Positions 2,091 to 11,585 are shown, numbered from the stretch's first letter. The stretch is DNA of 20,704 nucleotides from a virus (IMGVR_UViG_3300020196_000301:1-20704), one strand, 5' to 3'. The notes: generated from the letters alone by a model not told the origin. Numbers and translations: made by a program.

Positions 2091-2461
2091 TTAAAAGTAT
2101 AGTTTCAGAAGGACCTTATCTTGTGGTCAATGGCGGATATCATAATTATCCATACCTGAGCCCAGGTGCTGTTAAATTTAAAAACGCCAATTGTGCAGGA
2201 CACCTGCGTTGGAATACCAACACAAATGAAATGGAAGTAAATGATGGTGTAAGTTGGCGTGTCCTAAGTGCAAAACATACCACTGTTTCTTTAACCACTG
2301 ACGCACAAAAAGCACTGACCTGGGTCATGACGAAGATGACAGAAGAACACGAATTGAACCAACGCATGGAACGCCATCCCGGATTACGAGACACCTATGA
2401 AAAGTTTCGGATAATGGAAGCATTATGCAGAGAAGAAGATGCAGCATCACTTAACAAATAA
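2087..2461 (+). CDS. Hypothetical phage protein with a tail-fibre-like turn motif
   Basis: A 124-residue protein translationally coupled to the clamp gene (ATGA overlap) and overlapping the next gene by 23 bases. Residues about 38-60 (GHLRWNTNTNEMEVNDGVSW) resemble the 'RYN-TNT-LEV-NG-W' motif common in phage fibre and other surface proteins. The C-terminal half is charged and helical (MTEEHELNQRMERHPGLRDTY) and ends in an acidic helix. No catalytic motif is visible. It could be a small structural protein, but its place between clamp and dpdA is not typical of one. Function unknown. Confidence 0.7.
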   Translation: MIKSIVSEGPYLVVNGGYHNYPYLSPGAVKFKNANCAGHLRWNTNTNEMEVNDGVSWRVLSAKHTTVSLTTDAQKALTWVMTKMTEEHELNQRMERHPGLRDTYEKFRIMEALCREEDAASLNK

Positions 2462-4022
2462 TCAATTAGATGCCAATGGTCGCAGTAAATGGGCCGTATT
2501 TCTTCCAGCCATATCGGGATTTTATGCTACATTTATTGGTCGTCAACGTCATGAACACTATGTGGATCCCAAAAGATTTCCTCCAGGCATGACTGACATG
2601 GAACAGCTGAATTGGTTAAACAGTCAAAAATCACTGTTTCCTTATCGTTGGAGTCTATATTCAGCAGGCCATGCCAACTTGGATTTGGCCAAATCAGACT
2701 GGTCAGAACTCATGGTGCGTGATCGAGAATCCGGAACCTTCATGTTAGGCGATTCTGGTGGATTTCAAATCGCCAAAGGCATTTGGCAAGGCGACTGGCG
2801 TGCGAGTTCAGGATGTGCACAAGCACAACAGCACAGGCATAGAGCATTGACCTGGCTGGATCACATTGCAGATTACAGCATGTGTTTGGATATTCCCACT
2901 TGGACCCCTAAAATACCAGGGTCCAAAGAAAAAACCGGCATACACACCAGCCAAGATGCTGTGGCCGCCACCAAATTTAACAATGATTATTTCATGCAGC
3001 ACCGTCGTGGCATCAGAGCAGGAGGCACTAGATTTCTAAATGTGCTACAAGGTACCAATCACCAAGATGCTGACTCATGGTATGACACCATGAAGCACTA
3101 TTGTGATCCCAAAAAACACCCAGGACGTCATTTTGATGGCTGGGCCATGGGTGGCCAGAACATGTGTGATGTACATCTGGTATTGAAAAGATTGATCACA
3201 CTGTGGCATGATGGATTACTACAGGAAGGACTACATGATTGGATGCACTTTTTGGGAACCAGTAAACTGGAATGGGCAGTGTTGCTCACAGTCATACAGC
3301 GGGCAGTGCGCAGACATGTGAATCCTAACTTCACTATCAGCTTTGACTGTGCCAGTCCATTCTTGGCCACTGCCAATGGTCAAGTCTATTATCAAAACGT
3401 GTTCCCTCACAATGACAAATGGAGTTATCGAATGGCACCCAGTGCCGACGATAAACGATACGCCACCGACACACGTCAATGGAGTGTTGGGGTATTGGCC
3501 GACGGTATTCATGTCAATTGGCAAGAAAGTCCAGTTAGTGAGTTGTGGCGCATGCAGGATATATGCTATTATAAACCAGGTGATGTAAACAAAAATGGCA
3601 AAGAAGGACGCACCAGTTGGGACAGTTTCAGTTATTGCTTGATGATGTCACACAATGTGTACCTGCACATCACAGCAGTGCAAGAAGCCAATCGGAGATT
3701 TGACATGGGTGAGTATCCAGAAATGCTGCGTGATCAAAAGCATGATCATGAAATGTTTTCTGACATCGTGGACCGCATTTTCCGTGCTCCCACAAAATCT
3801 GCTGCCATGGCTGTGATTGAAGATCCCAAATACTCTCGTAAATCTGGATATTGGAACCAAATTATAGGCACCCGTGGCATCAAAGGCCAAAACATCACTA
3901 GTTCAGAAGTCATGGCTGAAAAACACTGTGAATTAGACATTGACACCTCCAAGGTCAAGTGTCAGCGTGACACTGTGATTCCGGACCTGAATTCTCAATT
4001 TTTTGAGGTCGATCATGCATAG
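2439..4022 (+). CDS. dpdA: DpdA/TGT-like 7-deazaguanine DNA transglycosylase
   Basis: Predicted to exchange guanine in DNA for a 7-deazaguanine base, as the DpdA branch of the tRNA-guanine transglycosylase (TGT) family does. TGT landmarks occur in order along 527 residues: the DSGGFQ substrate loop (105-110), D151 in SMCLDIP, NVLQG (201-205), FDGWAMGG (232-239), FLGTSKLEWA (271-280) and FDCASPF (302-308). D303 takes the place of the TGT nucleophile aspartate in FDCxxPTR. The CxCxxC zinc motif of bacterial TGT is not visible. folE, queD and queE, which make the base precursor, are downstream in the same block, supporting a DNA-modification role over tRNA. The start ATG follows a purine-rich stretch inside the previous gene. 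The insertion substrate (CDG, preQ0 or a derivative) cannot be told from sequence. Confidence 0.85.
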   Translation: MQHHLTNNQLDANGRSKWAVFLPAISGFYATFIGRQRHEHYVDPKRFPPGMTDMEQLNWLNSQKSLFPYRWSLYSAGHANLDLAKSDWSELMVRDRESGTFMLGDSGGFQIAKGIWQGDWRASSGCAQAQQHRHRALTWLDHIADYSMCLDIPTWTPKIPGSKEKTGIHTSQDAVAATKFNNDYFMQHRRGIRAGGTRFLNVLQGTNHQDADSWYDTMKHYCDPKKHPGRHFDGWAMGGQNMCDVHLVLKRLITLWHDGLLQEGLHDWMHFLGTSKLEWAVLLTVIQRAVRRHVNPNFTISFDCASPFLATANGQVYYQNVFPHNDKWSYRMAPSADDKRYATDTRQWSVGVLADGIHVNWQESPVSELWRMQDICYYKPGDVNKNGKEGRTSWDSFSYCLMMSHNVYLHITAVQEANRRFDMGEYPEMLRDQKHDHEMFSDIVDRIFRAPTKSAAMAVIEDPKYSRKSGYWNQIIGTRGIKGQNITSSEVMAEKHCELDIDTSKVKCQRDTVIPDLNSQFFEVDHA

Positions 4023-4518
4023 GCCAGGATTTGATTCATCAGTGAACTTCTTCACTGGCATTGAAGTGGAACACTCTCCAGCGCTGGGTCAGCGAACTTT
4101 GTTTGTGGTGGGCTTACAGTCAGTCACAGACATTGCCAGACATTTACAAGGCTGCACACACATTTACTTTGGTGCCAACATGAGTTTTCCCAAAGATGCC
4201 ACCTATGAACAATATCAACAATGGAACTGCATGATTGTGTATTTCTTGACGCGCGATTACTGGTGTACTCTGGACATGGATTTGAGCAATTTAGATCAAT
4301 TTCATGATAGCAATTTATGTGAATATCGTAGATTTATTCCCATGATCAGTGTTAAACTACCTTATATTCAATTATTCAACTACAATACCACTATAAAAAT
4401 TGATGATCGAGATTTTCAAGCCACCAATCCAGGTGTATGGTGTCATAGATTACATGATTTGAAAAGCACAGACAAATTCACAGACTGGGATCAATACAAA
4501 CAAGACATTATATCATAA
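4015..4518 (+). CDS. Conserved phage hypothetical next to dpdA
   Basis: A 167-residue protein whose start overlaps the dpdA stop by 8 bases. I chose ATG 4015 over an in-frame TTG at 4003 because GAGG (4005-4008) sits a suitable distance before it. The first third (FDSSVNFFTGIEVEHSPALGQRTLFVVG split over two strands) and a central WCTLDMDLSNLDQF segment look globular. There is no signal peptide, membrane segment or familiar catalytic motif. From memory, proteins with a 'TLFVVG' start of this kind occur in T4-like marine phages. Coupling to dpdA suggests a partner in the DNA-modification pathway, but this is inference. Function unknown. Confidence 0.75.
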   Translation: MHRPGFDSSVNFFTGIEVEHSPALGQRTLFVVGLQSVTDIARHLQGCTHIYFGANMSFPKDATYEQYQQWNCMIVYFLTRDYWCTLDMDLSNLDQFHDSNLCEYRRFIPMISVKLPYIQLFNYNTTIKIDDRDFQATNPGVWCHRLHDLKSTDKFTDWDQYKQDIIS

Positions 4519-4526
4519 GGACACAC

Positions 4527-4973
4527 ATGGAACAAAGAAATCAAGCCTTGGCTGACAAACGTCAGCGTGTGAAAGATCGTGCTCGACGCATGATTTGGGT
4601 GACTTTTTCTCGTGAAGGCACACATTGCTATCCAGCAGCAGCCACAGATCCCGATTTGGCCACAGGCGACGAATACGATGTGAGTTTTCTGGCATCTCCA
4701 CACAGACACATTTTTCATTTTCGAGTGGCCATAGAAGTCAAACATGGAAATCGTGACATAGAATTCATACAATTTAAAAGATGGTTGGAAAAGTTATACA
4801 CCGGAACCTTGCAATTGGATCACAAAAGTTGCGAAATGATAGCAGACGATTTATATGAACAAATTGCCACACGATATCCCGATCGAGACTGTGAAATCAC
4901 AGTTTCAGAAGACGGAGAGAATGGTGCCACCTGTGAATTTCTCACTCATCAACCCCCTAAAATTTCAGTTTAG
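4527..4973 (+). CDS. Short QueD/6-pyruvoyltetrahydropterin synthase-like (T-fold) protein
   Basis: A 148-residue protein that I read as a divergent T-fold enzyme related to QueD/PTPS. Candidate zinc ligands are H33 (EGTHCYPAA) and H59/H61 (HRH, in the place of HGH). They are followed by a hydrophobic strand (IFHFRVAIEV), then IEFIQFKRWL, which resembles DFxxLKxxV. Next comes LDHKSCEMIADDLYEQI, which resembles LDHxxLN plus the PTxExxA helix, and finally VSEDGENGA, which resembles the catalytic ETxxxxA strand. The proven-type QueD at 9367 has a comparable GCEKIADMLYKYM helix. AAGG overlapping the previous stop gives a good ribosome site. It sits three genes before galE in the dpdA block. If correct, the phage carries two T-fold enzymes; its substrate is unknown. 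It could instead be an unrelated conserved phage protein. Confidence 0.5.
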   Translation: MEQRNQALADKRQRVKDRARRMIWVTFSREGTHCYPAAATDPDLATGDEYDVSFLASPHRHIFHFRVAIEVKHGNRDIEFIQFKRWLEKLYTGTLQLDHKSCEMIADDLYEQIATRYPDRDCEITVSEDGENGATCEFLTHQPPKISV

Positions 4974-4996: not shown

Positions 4997-5227
4997 ATGA
5001 CTAAAAAAAGTCTTAAAAAGTATCTGCGTTTCACACCCGCAGTCACTGCAATTTTCAACGAACTGGATCAGTATTTGAATTTCTGCCGCGAATATGGTCA
5101 TGTGTACGATCCTCAAGATCTCGGACGCCAGACCCAGAGTTACCAAGATTTTCAACGACTGCAAGCTGGCAAACCTGTGCGTGATCAATGGTCACACATG
5201 ATCAAACAGGCACGCGGTCATGCGTAA
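4997..5227 (+). CDS. Small hypothetical protein
   Basis: A 76-residue basic protein. I chose ATG 4997, preceded by CAGGAG at 4984-4989, over an upstream in-frame GTG at 4973. The sequence has a Lys-rich start, an amphipathic stretch (TAIFNELDQYLNFCREYG) and a polar tail ending in WSHMIKQARGHA. No known motif is visible. It overlaps the glycosyltransferase start by 8 bases, so the two are probably co-translated. Function unknown. Confidence 0.65.
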   Translation: MTKKSLKKYLRFTPAVTAIFNELDQYLNFCREYGHVYDPQDLGRQTQSYQDFQRLQAGKPVRDQWSHMIKQARGHA

Positions 5228-6410
5228 GTTATTTTACATGTCTTTGGAATCTTATCCTGCTCGTTACACTTATCAACTCACGTCCTGGAATACCAGTGTG
5301 TTTGATCGTAGAGGCATAGACTATGTGATTGTGAACGGAGACGAACTCACCGCAGACAGAAACATAGTCACAGGACAAGTGTTAGACGCTCATGGGAGAA
5401 CATACTATTCCATGACTCAAATGGCCAATTTGATTCGCATGATGAAAGCAGGAGCAGTGACTCATGAAGATGTCATTTATTTTGAAGACATGTTTACGGC
5501 CGGTATCGAGAGCCTACCTTATATTCTCGATCAAGTGGATCCAAAGTATCGTCCCAAAATTTATGTGCGGTGCCTAGCACAAACCATAGATCCAGATGAC
5601 TTTGTACATGTCTGGGGCATGAATCGCTGGATGACCTGCTTTGAATACATGGTTAATTCTTTTGTCACAGGTGTTCTGGCCAGTAATGAAGAAATGGTGG
5701 CTCACATGCGTGTGGCCGGTTGGGGAGCTGACATTTACAACATATCGGGCCTGGCTTTTGGCAAGGATGAAGTCAAAAATCGCATATCGGGGCCTTTGCG
5801 ACCTTTCTCTGAGCGCACATATCGTGTGGGCTGGGCGTCCAGATGGGATCAAGAAAAACAACCAGAATTTTTCATGGACTTGATTGATCGCTATATCACA
5901 TTAAAAAAGAACTTAAATTATTTGCCGGAACTGGAGTTTGCTGTGTTTTCTGGTGGCAGGCTTAGATCCAATAATGCCAACATCTTAGATCGAACCAGAT
6001 CCATGATTGCAGACAATAAACTCAAAGTATATGAAAATTTGCCTAAAAACTCATATTACAATCTGCTCAATGACACAAGAGTGTTGTTCAATTGTGCTTT
6101 GCAAGACTGGGTCAGCAACACTGTGAGTGAAGCAGACGCTTTGGGTTGTAATGTGTTATTTCCGGCTTATAGATCATTTCCTGAAACCTTTGCAAATGAT
6201 CACGAACGTCTGTATGTGCCTTGGAGTCTCGATGATGCCATGGCCAAACTAATTCCCTTGCTGAGAGCTCCTCACAAAAATCAAGGACGTATTTCAGATC
6301 ACAACAACGGGACCATTGATCGTGTGTGTGACATCATCACAGGCCAAGGCCAAAAATGGCTGCGCGACACCAAAGATTATCGCCGACACCTGGCACCAAC
6401 AAAATATTAA
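5220..6410 (+). CDS. Glycosyltransferase, GT-B type
   Basis: A 396-residue protein with the two-domain look of GT-B glycosyltransferases. The C-terminal domain starts around residue 202 with RVGWASRWDQEKQPEFF. It continues with a LEFAVFSGG strand, then VYENLPKNSYYNLLNDTRVLFNCALQDW. A sugar-nucleotide-binding region with SNTVSEADALGCNVLFPAYRSFPE follows, a variant of the usual E-x7-E loop. The N-terminal domain is less conserved and holds DVIYFEDMFTAGIESL. It lies between the dpdA group and a GalE-like epimerase, the expected neighbour for supply of a sugar donor. The acceptor may be the modified base, a virion protein or a host glycan; nothing in the sequence decides this. Family call firm, substrate unknown. 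Confidence 0.75.
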   Translation: MRKLFYMSLESYPARYTYQLTSWNTSVFDRRGIDYVIVNGDELTADRNIVTGQVLDAHGRTYYSMTQMANLIRMMKAGAVTHEDVIYFEDMFTAGIESLPYILDQVDPKYRPKIYVRCLAQTIDPDDFVHVWGMNRWMTCFEYMVNSFVTGVLASNEEMVAHMRVAGWGADIYNISGLAFGKDEVKNRISGPLRPFSERTYRVGWASRWDQEKQPEFFMDLIDRYITLKKNLNYLPELEFAVFSGGRLRSNNANILDRTRSMIADNKLKVYENLPKNSYYNLLNDTRVLFNCALQDWVSNTVSEADALGCNVLFPAYRSFPETFANDHERLYVPWSLDDAMAKLIPLLRAPHKNQGRISDHNNGTIDRVCDIITGQGQKWLRDTKDYRRHLAPTKY

Positions 6411-6415
6411 CAATC

Positions 6416-7408
6416 ATGGAAAAAACTGTACTCATCACCGGCGCCACGGGATATATTGGCGGACATACAGCTCTGGCATTCAAAGAACTGGGTTACACTG
6501 TGATTGGTGTAGACAGACAAATCACAATATCGCAATCCTTGACATTTTTAGATGAATTTTTGTGTATGGATTTTGTGGAGGTAGTGGATTCGGCTGTGAG
6601 CATTAGATCTGTACCATTGATAGTGCATTGCGCTGCCAGTCATTCAGTGGAGCACAGTGTGCTGAATCCCGGTGAATATTATGACAACAATCTGGCCAAA
6701 ACCAATCGCATGCTTGTGATGCTGGCTGAAAAAAAATGGCAAGGCTGTGTGATCAACAGCAGTTCAGCAGCAGTGTATGGCATGACTCAAAGTCCCATCT
6801 CTGAAAGTGCTGTGAACACCAGCCGACCCATAAGTCCTTACGGCTGGAGTAAACTGTTTGTGGAACAATGCATGGCAGATCATTGTCGAGCGCAGGGATT
6901 TCGAAACATAAATCTCAGGTATTTTAATGCTGCCGGTTGCGATCATCAAGGGCGCATGGGAGCAGCACAACAAGGCAATCATTTGTTTACCACTGTGACC
7001 AAGGCTGTATGCCAAGAATCTCAGGAGCCTTTTGTGATCAACGGAGGTGACTATGAAACCAAAGATGGCACTTGTGTGAGAGATTTTGTGCATGTCAGTG
7101 ACATAGCTCAAGCTCATGTGTCTGCAGTCGGTGTGCTGGAAAACATGCTGGAATCACAATCAAGATCTTATAACATAGGCAGTGGCACAGGATACACTGT
7201 GCGCGAAGTCGTGGATGCTGTGAAACTACACAGTGGTTTCACAGATCTCAAAGTCACTGTGGGGCCCAGACGTGCAGGTGATCCTGAATCTCTTGTGGCT
7301 GATCACAGAAGATTTACAGAAGATTCCGGCTGGCGTCCTGTGGTCAGTACTTTAGAAGACTTGGCCAGCACCACATACAATTGGTTTCATGACCAATATT
7401 ACAATTGA
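6416..7408 (+). CDS. galE: NAD-dependent sugar epimerase, GalE-like
   Basis: A 330-residue extended short-chain dehydrogenase, near the usual GalE length of about 338. It is predicted to interconvert UDP-glucose and UDP-galactose or related sugars. The NAD-binding motif GATGYIGGH is at residues 9-17. The catalytic triad candidates are S116/S117 with Y142 and K146 (SPYGWSK), followed by NLRYFNAAGCDHQGRMG and a GTCVRDFVHVSDIAQAH segment typical of GalE. I chose ATG 6416 because it begins just before the beta strand of the Rossmann fold; an in-frame upstream ATG (6356) would overlap the glycosyltransferase by 55 bases. Its stop lies within the -35 box of the next promoter. It probably supplies the donor sugar for the upstream glycosyltransferase. 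Confidence 0.88.
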   Translation: MEKTVLITGATGYIGGHTALAFKELGYTVIGVDRQITISQSLTFLDEFLCMDFVEVVDSAVSIRSVPLIVHCAASHSVEHSVLNPGEYYDNNLAKTNRMLVMLAEKKWQGCVINSSSAAVYGMTQSPISESAVNTSRPISPYGWSKLFVEQCMADHCRAQGFRNINLRYFNAAGCDHQGRMGAAQQGNHLFTTVTKAVCQESQEPFVINGGDYETKDGTCVRDFVHVSDIAQAHVSAVGVLENMLESQSRSYNIGSGTGYTVREVVDAVKLHSGFTDLKVTVGPRRAGDPESLVADHRRFTEDSGWRPVVSTLEDLASTTYNWFHDQYYN

Positions 7409-7433
7409 CAACACAGTGTAAATACCATATAAT
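7405..7433 (+). promoter_or_regulatory. Consensus sigma70-type promoter ahead of folE
   Basis: TTGACA (7405-7410) and TATAAT (7428-7433) are both perfect consensus boxes with the ideal 17-base spacer. They lie at the end of galE and in the 67-base gap before folE. Transcription would begin near 7440, giving a leader of about 36 bases with CGGAG before the TTG start. Such a promoter is expected to be read by unmodified host RNA polymerase, hence early in infection. Confidence 0.8.
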
Positions 7434-7475
7434 GACTGTTACGGCAATCCTCTGCCTTATCATCGGAGCCAAATA

Positions 7476-8228
7476 TTGAATAAAAATAAAAAAAAACAAA
7501 AAATCAAAGCACAATCTCATGATCTAGACAATAAAAGTGCAGTATTTGGAAAACCCATCAGCGAAGTTATTCGTGAACGGATTCGTAACGCAGGAGCCAG
7601 ATTTCATTCCAATGACAACATCTCAGAATTTATTAGAAACAACGACGAGATTGATCGTCTAGTAGATGAGGTTGCTGGTCAATTTCAAGGTGTACTAAAT
7701 AGTTTAGTAATCGACACGCAAAATGATCATAACACGCAAGACACTGCAAGACGTGTGGCTAAGATGTTTGTACGTGAGACTTTTAGTGGACGCTATCGCA
7801 GCGTTCCCAAAGTCACAGCATTTCCCAACTTGGGATACAAAAGTCTTTATACCACAGGACCAATCAGTATAAGATCCACATGCGCTCACCATTTTCAAAA
7901 TATCATTGGACGATGCTGGGTGGGAATAGTGCCCGAAGAAGAAGTAATCGGTTTGAGCAAATTCAACAGGCTGGTACATCACATTTGCGAGAGACCTCAG
8001 ATACAGGAGGAAATGACCACACAGATTGCGTCTGCACTCCGCGACTATGCTCGGACCGAAAACATTGCCGTGGTCGTGAAGGCTGAACATCACTGTATGA
8101 CCATGCGTGGTGTAAGGGAACACGAGTCGGATATGACCACAGCAATCATGCTGGGAGCGTTTCATAATGACCCAGCACTGAAAAAAGAGTTTTATGACAT
8201 TTGCTTATCAATGAAAGGACATGCTTGA
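7476..8228 (+). CDS. folE: GTP cyclohydrolase I
   Basis: Converts GTP to 7,8-dihydroneopterin triphosphate, the first step to 7-deazaguanine bases and to folate. The catalytic core runs from about residue 85 to 230 of 250. The zinc site residues are C136 and H138/H139 (CAHHF) and C207 (EHHCMTMRG). GLSKFNRLVHHICERPQIQE (159-178) is a family hallmark. A Lys-rich, Asn-rich N-terminal 20 residues precedes the core. The start is a TTG, supported by GGAG (7465-7468) seven bases before it and by the absence of a nearby in-frame ATG. The downstream methyltransferase start overlaps its stop by one base. Valine codons favour GTA (8 of 18) over GTG (5), unlike neighbouring genes. With queD, queE and dpdA in the block, a base-modification role is more likely than folate synthesis. 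Confidence 0.93.
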   Translation: MNKNKKKQKIKAQSHDLDNKSAVFGKPISEVIRERIRNAGARFHSNDNISEFIRNNDEIDRLVDEVAGQFQGVLNSLVIDTQNDHNTQDTARRVAKMFVRETFSGRYRSVPKVTAFPNLGYKSLYTTGPISIRSTCAHHFQNIIGRCWVGIVPEEEVIGLSKFNRLVHHICERPQIQEEMTTQIASALRDYARTENIAVVVKAEHHCMTMRGVREHESDMTTAIMLGAFHNDPALKKEFYDICLSMKGHA

Positions 8229-9016
8229 TGACATTCGTAGGTGCAGTTGGCAACAGATCCGAATCTGACGCTGGAACCTATCCAGGATTTGTTGCTGCTG
8301 CTGTAAATGATTATAGTGTTTTTGAAAATTTTCGTAGGAACCCAACCTATAACGCCATACTAGAACATGTTAGTTATGATCAAGGGCAAAAGTATTTAGA
8401 AATTGTACGCACACAATCTCCTGATCTATATCAACAATTAGATCGGTTTCGAATCAATGATTTGGTAGGTAACCCATATTTGTTTGATTTTGATCAAGTC
8501 AGTCAAATTGGAACTACTACACTGCGTTATTTAAAAGTACTCAGTGATATTAAGAATCAATTCGGTACTGAATTTGGTCAGATTATTGAAATCGGAGCAG
8601 GCTACGGTGGTCAGTGTTTGATCTGTGATCAAGTTTTAAATTTTACTCAATATGTAATGTTTGACTTGCCGCCAGTTTTGAGGTTAATTAGTCGATATTT
8701 AGAAAGTCATAATCTAAATAACAGCTACAGCCTTAGTACTATTAATCAATGGGCCAAAAACTCCGACTGTGATTTAGTTATAAGCAACTATGCATTCAGC
8801 GAACTGCCTAGTCAACTACAGTTAAAATACTTAGAAAAAGTAATCAAACCATCTCGTCGAGGGTACATGACCATGAATAGTGGTAGAGATGGTACTGCTT
8901 TTTCTAATGACAAACTCACTGTTGACTATATACTAACACAAATACCAAACAGTAGAATCGTCGAAGAGATACCGCAAACTGGCAATAATAATTATATTAT
9001 CATATGGAGTAACTAA
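8228..9016 (+). CDS. Putative sugar O-methyltransferase (SAM-dependent)
   Basis: A 262-residue Rossmann-fold methyltransferase. The SAM-binding motif is IIEIGAGYGGQC, followed by YVMFDLPPVLRLISRYL (motif II acid D in FDLP) and CDLVISNYAFSELP. This pattern matches the family annotated as putative sugar O-methyltransferases (NanM-like). ATG 8228 overlaps the folE stop by one base and has AAGGA at 8215-8219; an in-frame TTG at 8201 lies inside folE. Counting valine codons gives GTG 0, GTA 7, GTT 8 and GTC 2 of 17, strikingly unlike the GTG-rich genes around it, so recent acquisition is likely. A small-molecule or base methyltransferase cannot be excluded. Its place between folE and queD suggests a part in the modification pathway or in trimming of the added sugar. 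Confidence 0.7.
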   Translation: MTFVGAVGNRSESDAGTYPGFVAAAVNDYSVFENFRRNPTYNAILEHVSYDQGQKYLEIVRTQSPDLYQQLDRFRINDLVGNPYLFDFDQVSQIGTTTLRYLKVLSDIKNQFGTEFGQIIEIGAGYGGQCLICDQVLNFTQYVMFDLPPVLRLISRYLESHNLNNSYSLSTINQWAKNSDCDLVISNYAFSELPSQLQLKYLEKVIKPSRRGYMTMNSGRDGTAFSNDKLTVDYILTQIPNSRIVEEIPQTGNNNYIIIWSN

Positions 9017-9366: not shown

Positions 9367-9879
9367 ATGACCAAATTTGAATCGGTGACATATAAATTTG
9401 TCAGCACCAAAGAATATCACGACGAATTTCCTGTGGCATATAAACAATGGAAGGCAGACAGTCATTGTAATCGCAACCACGGTTACTCATTTTCTATGAA
9501 ATTTTATTTTGGCGCAAATGAACTGGATAAAAGAGGTTGGGTATGCGATTATGGAGGACTCAAAGAACTCAAACAAATACTCAAAGATCAATTCGATCAT
9601 CGCACTCTCATTGCTGCTGATGATCCAGATCTTGAAAAATTCAAACAACTGGAACGAGAAGGAATTTTAGATCTGACTGTGCTGCCCGGCATGGGCTGCG
9701 AAAAAATAGCTGACATGTTGTACAAATACATGAACGGAGTGTACATACCGGATTATCTGGGACAAGCAGAGGCCCAACGAGTTTGGTGTTTCAAAGTCGA
9801 AGTCAGAGAAACTCAAAGCAACATGGCCTATCGACAAGGTCATAGAGAATGGAAGGAAGATCTGTTTGTAGATTCATGA
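9367..9879 (+). CDS. queD: 6-carboxy-5,6,7,8-tetrahydropterin synthase-like (QueD)
   Basis: Predicted to convert dihydroneopterin triphosphate to 6-carboxytetrahydropterin, the second step to 7-deazaguanines. The 170 residues show C34 in CNRNHGY (34-40), the place of the canonical CxxxHGH. Then come WVCDYGGLKELK (58-69, like GMVxDFxxLK), DHRTLI (77-82) with a candidate catalytic H78, GCEKIADML and RETQSNMA (147-154) with catalytic E148. The second zinc His of HGH is replaced by Tyr40; the first ligand is probably H18. E. coli QueD is about 120 residues, so this version has insertions, mainly in the DDPDLEKFKQLEREGILDL region. GGAG (9356-9359) precedes ATG 9367 by seven bases, in a leader almost identical to that of folE. 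Confidence 0.82.
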   Translation: MTKFESVTYKFVSTKEYHDEFPVAYKQWKADSHCNRNHGYSFSMKFYFGANELDKRGWVCDYGGLKELKQILKDQFDHRTLIAADDPDLEKFKQLEREGILDLTVLPGMGCEKIADMLYKYMNGVYIPDYLGQAEAQRVWCFKVEVRETQSNMAYRQGHREWKEDLFVDS

Positions 9880-10697: not shown

Positions 10698-11585
10698 ATG
10701 AACAAATCTAAAATCAGTGTTTCGGAAATCTTCATATCTTGCCAAGGTGAGGCTCGTTTCACAGGCGTGCCCAGTGTATTTCTAAGAACTTTTGGCTGTA
10801 ACTTTCGTTGTAAAAACTTTGGCCGATACCAAGAACATGTGTTGGAACCCAGTGTCACGCATAATCCAGAAGTCATCGCCATAATTAATGACCTGGATCA
10901 ATATAAATCATTTGATCAACTGCCACTGGTCAGCACAGGCTGTGACAGTTACAGTTCAGTGTATCCAGAATTTCGTCATTTGGCACAGCGCCTTACTGTG
11001 GATCAAATAGTTGAACGTTGTCGCGAACTATTGCCTTTTCACCGCTGGCGCAAAGAACACCTTGTGATCACTGGCGGAGAGCCTTTGTTGGGCTGGCAAA
11101 AATATTATCCTGACTTGTTAGAACATGAATTCATGAGAGACCTACGTGACATCACTTTTGAAACCAACGGCACTCAGCCCTTGACTGAAACATTTTTCCA
11201 ATACTTAAAGACCTGGAATCAACGCAGATATACCTTGGGAGCCGGAGGTGAAATCACTTTTAGTGTCAGTGCCAAATTGCCCAACAGCGGAGAATCCTGG
11301 GCAGATGCCATCAAACCAGATGTGGTATGCCAATATCAAAGTATTGGACACACTTATTTGAAATTTGTGGTGGCCACTGATGATGACATTCAAGCAGCAT
11401 TACAAGCCATGAAAGAATACCAAGATTCGGGTTTTGATGGTGATGTGTATCTGATGCCTGTGGGCGGTGTGGAATCTGTGTACCATCTCAATGCCAGACG
11501 TGTGGCTGAGGCCAGTCTACAACATGGTCTCAGATACAGTGCCAGACTGCAATGTGATTTATTTGGAAATGCCTGGGGGACCTAA
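10698..11585 (+). CDS. queE: 7-carboxy-7-deazaguanine synthase-like radical SAM enzyme (QueE)
   Basis: Predicted to convert 6-carboxytetrahydropterin to CDG using SAM and a [4Fe-4S] cluster. The 295-residue protein starts with ISVSEIFISCQGEARFTGVPSVFLR, the usual substrate-binding start. The cluster motif is unusual: C34 and C38 are in GCNFRC, but the position of the third Cys is Phe41. A CDS motif with C82 (STGCDSY) follows after a 40-odd-residue insertion and aligns with the CD(T/S) that normally ends CxxxCxxC. The GGEP SAM motif is at 126-129 and FETNGTQ at 154-160. The C-terminal QCDLFGNAWGT matches QueE. Typical QueE proteins are about 210-240 residues, so this one is long. It overlaps the next gene as TAATG. 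Confidence 0.85.
   Translation: MNKSKISVSEIFISCQGEARFTGVPSVFLRTFGCNFRCKNFGRYQEHVLEPSVTHNPEVIAIINDLDQYKSFDQLPLVSTGCDSYSSVYPEFRHLAQRLTVDQIVERCRELLPFHRWRKEHLVITGGEPLLGWQKYYPDLLEHEFMRDLRDITFETNGTQPLTETFFQYLKTWNQRRYTLGAGGEITFSVSAKLPNSGESWADAIKPDVVCQYQSIGHTYLKFVVATDDDIQAALQAMKEYQDSGFDGDVYLMPVGGVESVYHLNARRVAEASLQHGLRYSARLQCDLFGNAWGT

Follow-up and report, generated by a model that had tools for sequence, protein, structure and literature searches.

The IMG/VR virus record IMGVR_UViG_3300020196_000301 is a genome fragment of 20.7 kb (20,704 nt), and the whole of this stretch is referred to here as the window. The window contains a block of 7-deazaguanine genes in which a predicted glycosyltransferase (GT) gene and galE lie between dpdA and folE. 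A putative sugar O-methyltransferase (MT) gene lies between folE and queD; the MT gene spans 8228-9016, folE ends at 8228 and queD starts at 9367. This layout is congruent with an original prediction made for the window, which proposed a 7-deazaguanine DNA base carrying a sugar that may be methylated, and the open reading frames match the coordinates given there. The gene at 4527-4973, which was beyond the gene list of that prediction, is a further member of the same module and encodes a protein with a QueD fold (T-fold) that is assigned to phrog_17812.

Relatives of the window GT are present in at least 598 IMG/VR stretches, and a divergent GT type, recovered by an alignment search of IMG/VR, is present in at least 585 further stretches. 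For each type, the best 80 loci were analyzed. Within these sets, dpdA is present in all 63 window-type loci that have 6.5 kb or more of upstream sequence, and both dpdA and the T-fold gene are present in all 61 divergent loci that have 7 kb or more. The divergent loci with 9 kb or more downstream contain folE in 35/35 cases and queE in 33/35. Single-protein scans of IMG/VR with the PA5oct or X1 GT return no match, and the ACP17 GT returns ACP17 itself only. Starting from dpdA, the GT is found in 31 of 33 large dpdA-region records. It is missing from one contig that is cut short and from Vibrio phage 2.275.O, where QueC and QueF are found instead. The usual gene order is polB, the phrog_12062 gene, dpdA, the T-fold gene, the GT gene, folE and queE. 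The GT is present in phages from freshwater, marine and soil sources. Bacterial and archaeal genomes (84,980 species) contain a single match to the GT family, on a contig that also carries dpdA, and by these searches the family appears essentially viral. This arrangement is more than chance, because dpdA accompanies the GT in every locus counted for either type, and the GT is a fixed part of the 7-deazaguanine block. GT sequences are approximately 65% identical across phages while DpdA sequences range from 35 to 78%, which is the pattern of a core enzyme.

The GT is linked to two DpdA subfamilies. It accompanies the window-type DpdA in PA5oct, Phosso and the IMG/VR phages, and DpdA2 in three isolates unrelated to each other, ACP17, X1 and BUCT-ZZ01. 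The block order is QueD, FolE, DpdA2, GT, T-fold protein and QueE in ACP17 and FolE, GT, DpdA2, T-fold protein and QueE in X1. In BUCT-ZZ01, the order is GT, T-fold protein, DpdA2, a second GT, FolE, QueD, a phosphoribosyltransferase and QueE. In Phosso, the T-fold and GT genes adjoin folE and queE, and dpdA is distant. A single base separates the GT gene from dpdA in X1, and in PA5oct and ACP17 the two genes share 1-4 bases. BUCT-ZZ01 has the genome of a cyanomyovirus and a DpdA of the other subfamily (DpdA2), yet its GT is 59% identical to the window GT. The GT carriers are not monophyletic in a small tree of DpdA2. The hosts of GT carriers include Pseudomonas, Acidovorax, Xanthomonas and Sinorhizobium, and BUCT-ZZ01 infects Synechococcus.

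Whole-genome searches of 13 DpdA-bearing isolates separate the GT and phrog_17812 from QueC. Both are present in 5/5 genomes without QueC (BUCT-ZZ01, PA5oct, Phosso, ACP17 and X1) and in 0/8 genomes with QueC (2.275.O, pf16, Moby, nt-1, KVP40, 9g, CAjan and Dp-1; Fisher p = 8e-4, uncorrected for relatedness). The Moby QueC is a weak QueC-like match that adjoins dpdA. No QueC was found in BUCT-ZZ01, PA5oct, Phosso or ACP17, and X1 has no match over the cut-off. The best 80 divergent GT loci likewise contain no QueC match. Five weak QueC matches are present in large IMG/VR relatives; both of those inspected are NAD synthetases and were rejected. Vibrio phage 2.275.O encodes an Amidoligase_2-like protein after dpdA (L160:13797-16727), with QueF and QueC nearby, and its deazaguanine may be amino-acylated rather than glycosylated.

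The window DpdA has no match in Pfam, PHROG, NCBIfam or PDB sequence searches, and a sequence-profile search against solved structures gave no useful link. Across 31 relatives, including those of PA5oct and Phosso, the DSGG motif (D105) and the I-S-[FY]-D motif with the nucleophilic aspartate D303 are invariant. The profile of this family matches that of DpdA2 (ACP17, X1, BUCT-ZZ01, nt-1, KVP40, pf16 and Moby) with an hhalign probability of 93.9 and an E-value of 1.5e-7. At the level of motifs and the DpdA2 profile match, the product of 2439-4022 is confirmed as a member of the DpdA/TGT superfamily. One of the phages in the DpdA2 profile, nt-1, has dPreQ0 in its DNA (PMC6884629). The protein encoded at 4018-4518 has no family match, and a 32% identical copy is found directly before DpdA2 in ACP17.

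The window GT has no PHROG or NCBIfam match. Its only Pfam match, to PF13524, is weak (0.0014) and below the cut-off, and a sequence-profile search against solved structures gave nothing useful (best match WlaC, E 0.011). The structure model, built from 40 relatives with a predicted local distance difference test score (pLDDT) of 85.5, has a complete GT-B fold across the whole protein. The best fold match is 6kih (Z 26.7, root-mean-square deviation 3.6, 344 aligned residues), and sucrose-phosphate synthase, MshA, BshA, SenB and tetrahydrobiopterin glucosyltransferases match the model at Z 23-27. Many GT4 enzymes match at similar Z, and the fold therefore tells the class of the GT and not its acceptor. 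Residues E10, R15, Y16, T17, D90, D127, E142, R208, E212, K213, E304 and E322 are invariant across the window-type and divergent GTs. At the E-x7-E position, the window-type GT has D296-x7-E304, and PA5oct, Phosso, ACP17 and locus L158 have E-x7-E. On the basis of the model, the product of 5220-6410 is a predicted GT-B/GT4-like retaining glycosyltransferase. Its net charge, computed to look for a DNA-binding signature, is -1. In Xanthomonas phage PhiXhv-12 (L174:6735-9969), a GT that is only 24% related to the window family forms a separate small sugar cluster with a glutamine-fructose-6-phosphate aminotransferase and a GlcNAc-malate deacetylase-like gene.

The model of the phrog_17812 protein (pLDDT 93.6) has the QueD/PTPS fold, and its best Foldseek matches are to E. 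coli QueD (E 4.9e-5, probability 1.0). The invariant residues are H33, H59 and H61, which are the expected zinc-binding histidines, along with C102, E103 and E128. An invariant leucine (L55) stands where QueD has its catalytic cysteine, at the fourth position ahead of the H-x-H zinc motif. The protein is therefore QueD-like, and its identification as a true QueD is ruled out by this replacement. Because it and QueC are mutually exclusive, its substrate may be 7-carboxy-7-deazaguanine (CDG). Five further phages contain phrog_17812 without the GT, and no window-type DpdA was found in those five. In Rhizobium phage RHph_I1_18 (L170:9417-10241), a macrodomain (Appr-1-p processing) protein adjoins phrog_17812 and FolE, and neither the GT nor the window-type DpdA was found.

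Taken together, the GT is probably (approximately 60%) dedicated to a branch of the phage 7-deazaguanine pathway that lacks QueC, in which it would glycosylate the base inserted by DpdA, with the chemistry read from genes, folds and co-occurrence. CDG is the joint product of FolE, QueD and QueE, and QueC turns it into preQ0 (PMC13329287). The block contains its own DpdA but no QueC, and therefore CDG or a derivative should be the base that is inserted. A deazaguanine acceptor is favored because the GT is inherited and moves with DpdA, abuts or overlaps it in three isolates, and is absent alongside QueC. In the proposed mechanism, FolE, QueD and QueE would convert GTP to CDG, as is known for these enzyme families, and the TGT-like DpdA would replace guanine in the phage DNA with CDG or with a base derived from it. 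The phrog_17812 protein, given its mutual exclusion with QueC, would take the place of QueC and process the base. With a nucleotide sugar as donor, the GT would then glycosylate the inserted base; the simplest acceptors would be the 7-carboxylate or the group made by the T-fold protein. In the lineage of the window, GalE would supply a donor of the UDP-galactose type, and the MT may conceivably cap the sugar in this one phage. The likely product would be DNA with a glycosylated 7-deazaguanine that shields it against host nucleases.

Table 1. Features of the 7-deazaguanine block in the window
Feature	Coordinates	Strand	Basis
dpdA-type predicted TGT-like DNA-guanine transglycosylase, 527 aa	2439..4022	+	Invariant D105 (DSGG) and D303 (ISFDCASP); DpdA2 profile match
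Conserved gene in the dpdA/T-fold interval	4018..4518	+	114 relatives in fetched loci
QueD-fold (T-fold) protein, phrog_17812, without the QueD cysteine	4527..4973	+	phrog_17812 2e-32; model; Foldseek; invariant residues
Predicted glycosyltransferase (GT), GT-B fold, GT4-like, 396 aa	5220..6410	+	Fold match, motifs, dpdA co-occurrence
galE, UDP-glucose 4-epimerase	6416..7408	+	TIGR01179 272.8 bits, cut-off 262.3
folE, GTP cyclohydrolase I	7476..8228	+	PF01227 5.7e-46
Putative sugar O-methyltransferase (MT)	8228..9016	+	TIGR04371 57.5 bits, cut-off 44
queD, 6-carboxytetrahydropterin synthase	9367..9879	+	PTPS PF01242 5.6e-18, phrog_2389 1.7e-36
queE, 7-carboxy-7-deazaguanine synthase	10698..11585	+	QueE models, best 3.9e-13, below cut-offs; syntenic relatives across loci

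The accessory sugar genes do not share the distribution of the GT. Between the GT gene and folE, galE is present in 57/63 loci of the window's group, and a short DegT-type aminotransferase is present in 43/63. GalE is found in 3/26 loci of a second group, and a reading of cluster representatives places an epimerase-like gene in at most 1/41 loci of the divergent set. In the second group, a heptose/glycerol-phosphate nucleotidyltransferase-like gene is located between folE and queD in 14/17 loci. Of 18 large contigs, 15 contain an epimerase no more than 4 kb from the GT, where random positions would give 3.1. GalE is an accessory of particular lineages, and its role as a universal donor enzyme is ruled out by its absence from most second-group loci and nearly all divergent loci.

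The likely ATG start of the MT gene is at 8228 and has one base in common with the folE stop. Its GC content at third codon positions (0.274) is the lowest of the coding genes measured, the others ranging from 0.34 to 0.52. This AT-rich composition and the one-base overlap suggest from sequence that the MT is a recent arrival. The IMG/VR search returned no relative of the MT, and no other sampled locus contains it. Its only relatives, all of them distant, come from marine cyanophages and a single large uncultured phage. The lack of a relative in this IMG/VR search and the deviating base composition argue against the MT as a conserved part of the module. The MT may or may not act on the same sugar as the GT, and a methylhexose adduct on the base would be a guess. 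The original prediction had asked whether the GT, galE and the MT co-occur with dpdA across related phages. The GT does, galE does so mainly in the window's group, and the MT does not. Its idea of a sugar-bearing deazaguanine is accordingly upheld in part. Support is strong for the GT, through a link to dpdA that has no exception in the loci sampled and holds for two DpdA subfamilies and for phages with different backbones, and through the exclusion with QueC; it is weaker for GalE, and the idea is not upheld for the MT.

Other genes recur near the GT in particular groups. A phosphoribosyltransferase is present in 37/41 divergent loci and also in BUCT-ZZ01 and PA5oct (L250:9914-10456, L035:15393-15932, L159:26303-26764 and L161:17940-18374), and it may salvage the guanine displaced by DpdA. 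A GMP reductase-like gene is found in one phage group. A second GT4-like protein, which possibly adds a second sugar, follows queE in the second group (L038:14903-16237) and adjoins DpdA2 in BUCT-ZZ01 (L159:23504-24847).

Several points weigh against glycosylation of the inserted base. The literature searched contains no nucleoside or mass-spectrometric analysis of the DNA of these phages. The GT4-like fold leaves the acceptor unspecified, and the patchy distribution of GalE across groups does not fix the donor sugar. Most IMG/VR loci share one syntenic backbone, with common descent behind much of the co-occurrence, and the independent points are few (ACP17, X1 and BUCT-ZZ01, plus 2.275.O as a negative). 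The host could also supply QueC. If the phrog_17812 protein were a CDG decarboxylase, no carboxylate would be left for the GT. In a 2023 study of four additional 7-deazaguanines, Cui et al. reportedly named a CDG decarboxylase DpdL, and phrog_17812 may conceivably be that enzyme.

The targets of the GT, GalE and MT could instead be virion proteins, which they would decorate, or the surface polysaccharide of the host, which they would remodel, with their position in the block a product of conserved gene order. This is unlikely. Other sugar-nucleotide genes are present elsewhere in these phages (49 epimerase matches in 18 contigs, with full-length pairs of DegT and epimerase), TIGR04371 and cyanophage sugar genes often occur in surface-sugar clusters, and GalE and the MT vary from phage to phage. 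However, the surface-sugar genes of the same phages sit away from the block, and the GT is conserved across phages of all three source environments, accompanies DpdA in unrelated phages and is missing where QueC is encoded. A surface role explains neither the QueC exclusion nor the link to two DpdA subfamilies. Virion decoration, the alternative in the original prediction, is thus disfavored for the GT and may apply to GalE or the MT.

The enzyme could also glycosylate a free base or a pterin intermediate, as the cyanobacterial tetrahydrobiopterin glucosyltransferase does, either ahead of insertion into DNA or in place of it. Pterin intermediates arise in the pathway of the block, a second PTPS-fold protein is encoded there, one carrier infects Synechococcus, and the GT fold is close to the tetrahydrobiopterin glucosyltransferases (9v0l, Z 23.8; 5zes, Z 23.1). 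These Z values are tied with those of many GT4 enzymes, including sugar, lipid and thiol glycosyltransferases, whereas the closest and most constant partner of the GT is DpdA, which acts on DNA, and the other carriers infect Pseudomonas, Acidovorax, Xanthomonas and Sinorhizobium. Action on a free compound is quite improbable. Highly improbable is a GT whose acceptor is tRNA queuosine or a different base of the DNA and whose link to the deazaguanine genes is only regulatory. Sugars are known on tRNA queuosine (galactosyl-queuosine and mannosyl-queuosine; PMC12518689) and on hydroxymethylcytosine, but the window contains no tRNA gene, phages do not encode the late queuosine steps (PMC6884629), and the exclusion with QueC implicates the deazaguanine pathway as such.

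Glycosylation of the DpdA-inserted base would combine features of several known systems. The DpdA and DpdA2 phages 9g, CAjan and nt-1 (Hutinet 2019, PMC6884629) have FolE, QueD, QueE and a TGT-like guanine-swapping enzyme, as is the case here. Unlike the window-type phages, they encode QueC (or Gat-QueC, QueF) and contain neither the GT nor phrog_17812, and glycosyl groups are not mentioned in that study. In T-even phages and RB69, a phage glycosyltransferase adds glucose or arabinose, respectively, to a modified DNA base and protects the DNA (PMC13216743, PMC6024577), which is the kind of reaction proposed here. Their acceptor is hydroxymethylcytosine, whereas the present GT is tied to a transglycosylase pathway and matches no PHROG or NCBIfam family. 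The animal enzymes QTGAL and QTMAN are dedicated glycosyltransferases that add galactose or mannose to queuosine, a 7-deazaguanine nucleoside (PMC12518689). In that case, the modified nucleoside belongs to tRNA, the sugar is attached to cyclopentene hydroxyls, which phages are unable to make, and the likeness to the GT is by description. The cyanobacterial tetrahydrobiopterin glucosyltransferases share the GT4-like fold and have a ligand related to the pterin intermediates of the pathway, but they act on the free pterin, and their Z to the GT model is shared by unrelated GT4 enzymes.

The original prediction knew of no described phage base of this kind. The literature searched, which left out Cui 2023 and a 2024 review, likewise contains no report of a glycosylated 7-deazaguanine in DNA. 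The broader claim stands at about even odds: that a widespread group of phages has glycosylated 7-deazaguanine DNA, in which a QueD-fold protein and a GT4-like enzyme replace QueC, and that this would be the first sugar-bearing guanine analogue known in DNA, with lineage-specific tailoring of the sugar. Isolates with the module exist (BUCT-ZZ01, Phosso, ACP17, X1 and PA5oct/Paride), and the prediction is open to direct test. If true, it would define the product of the QueC-less deazaguanine phages and would provide new DNA glycosyltransferases for labelling and sequencing chemistry. It would also join two separate anti-restriction strategies, 7-deazaguanine and the DNA sugars known on hydroxymethylated pyrimidines, and would present host defences with a bulky major-groove mark to recognize.

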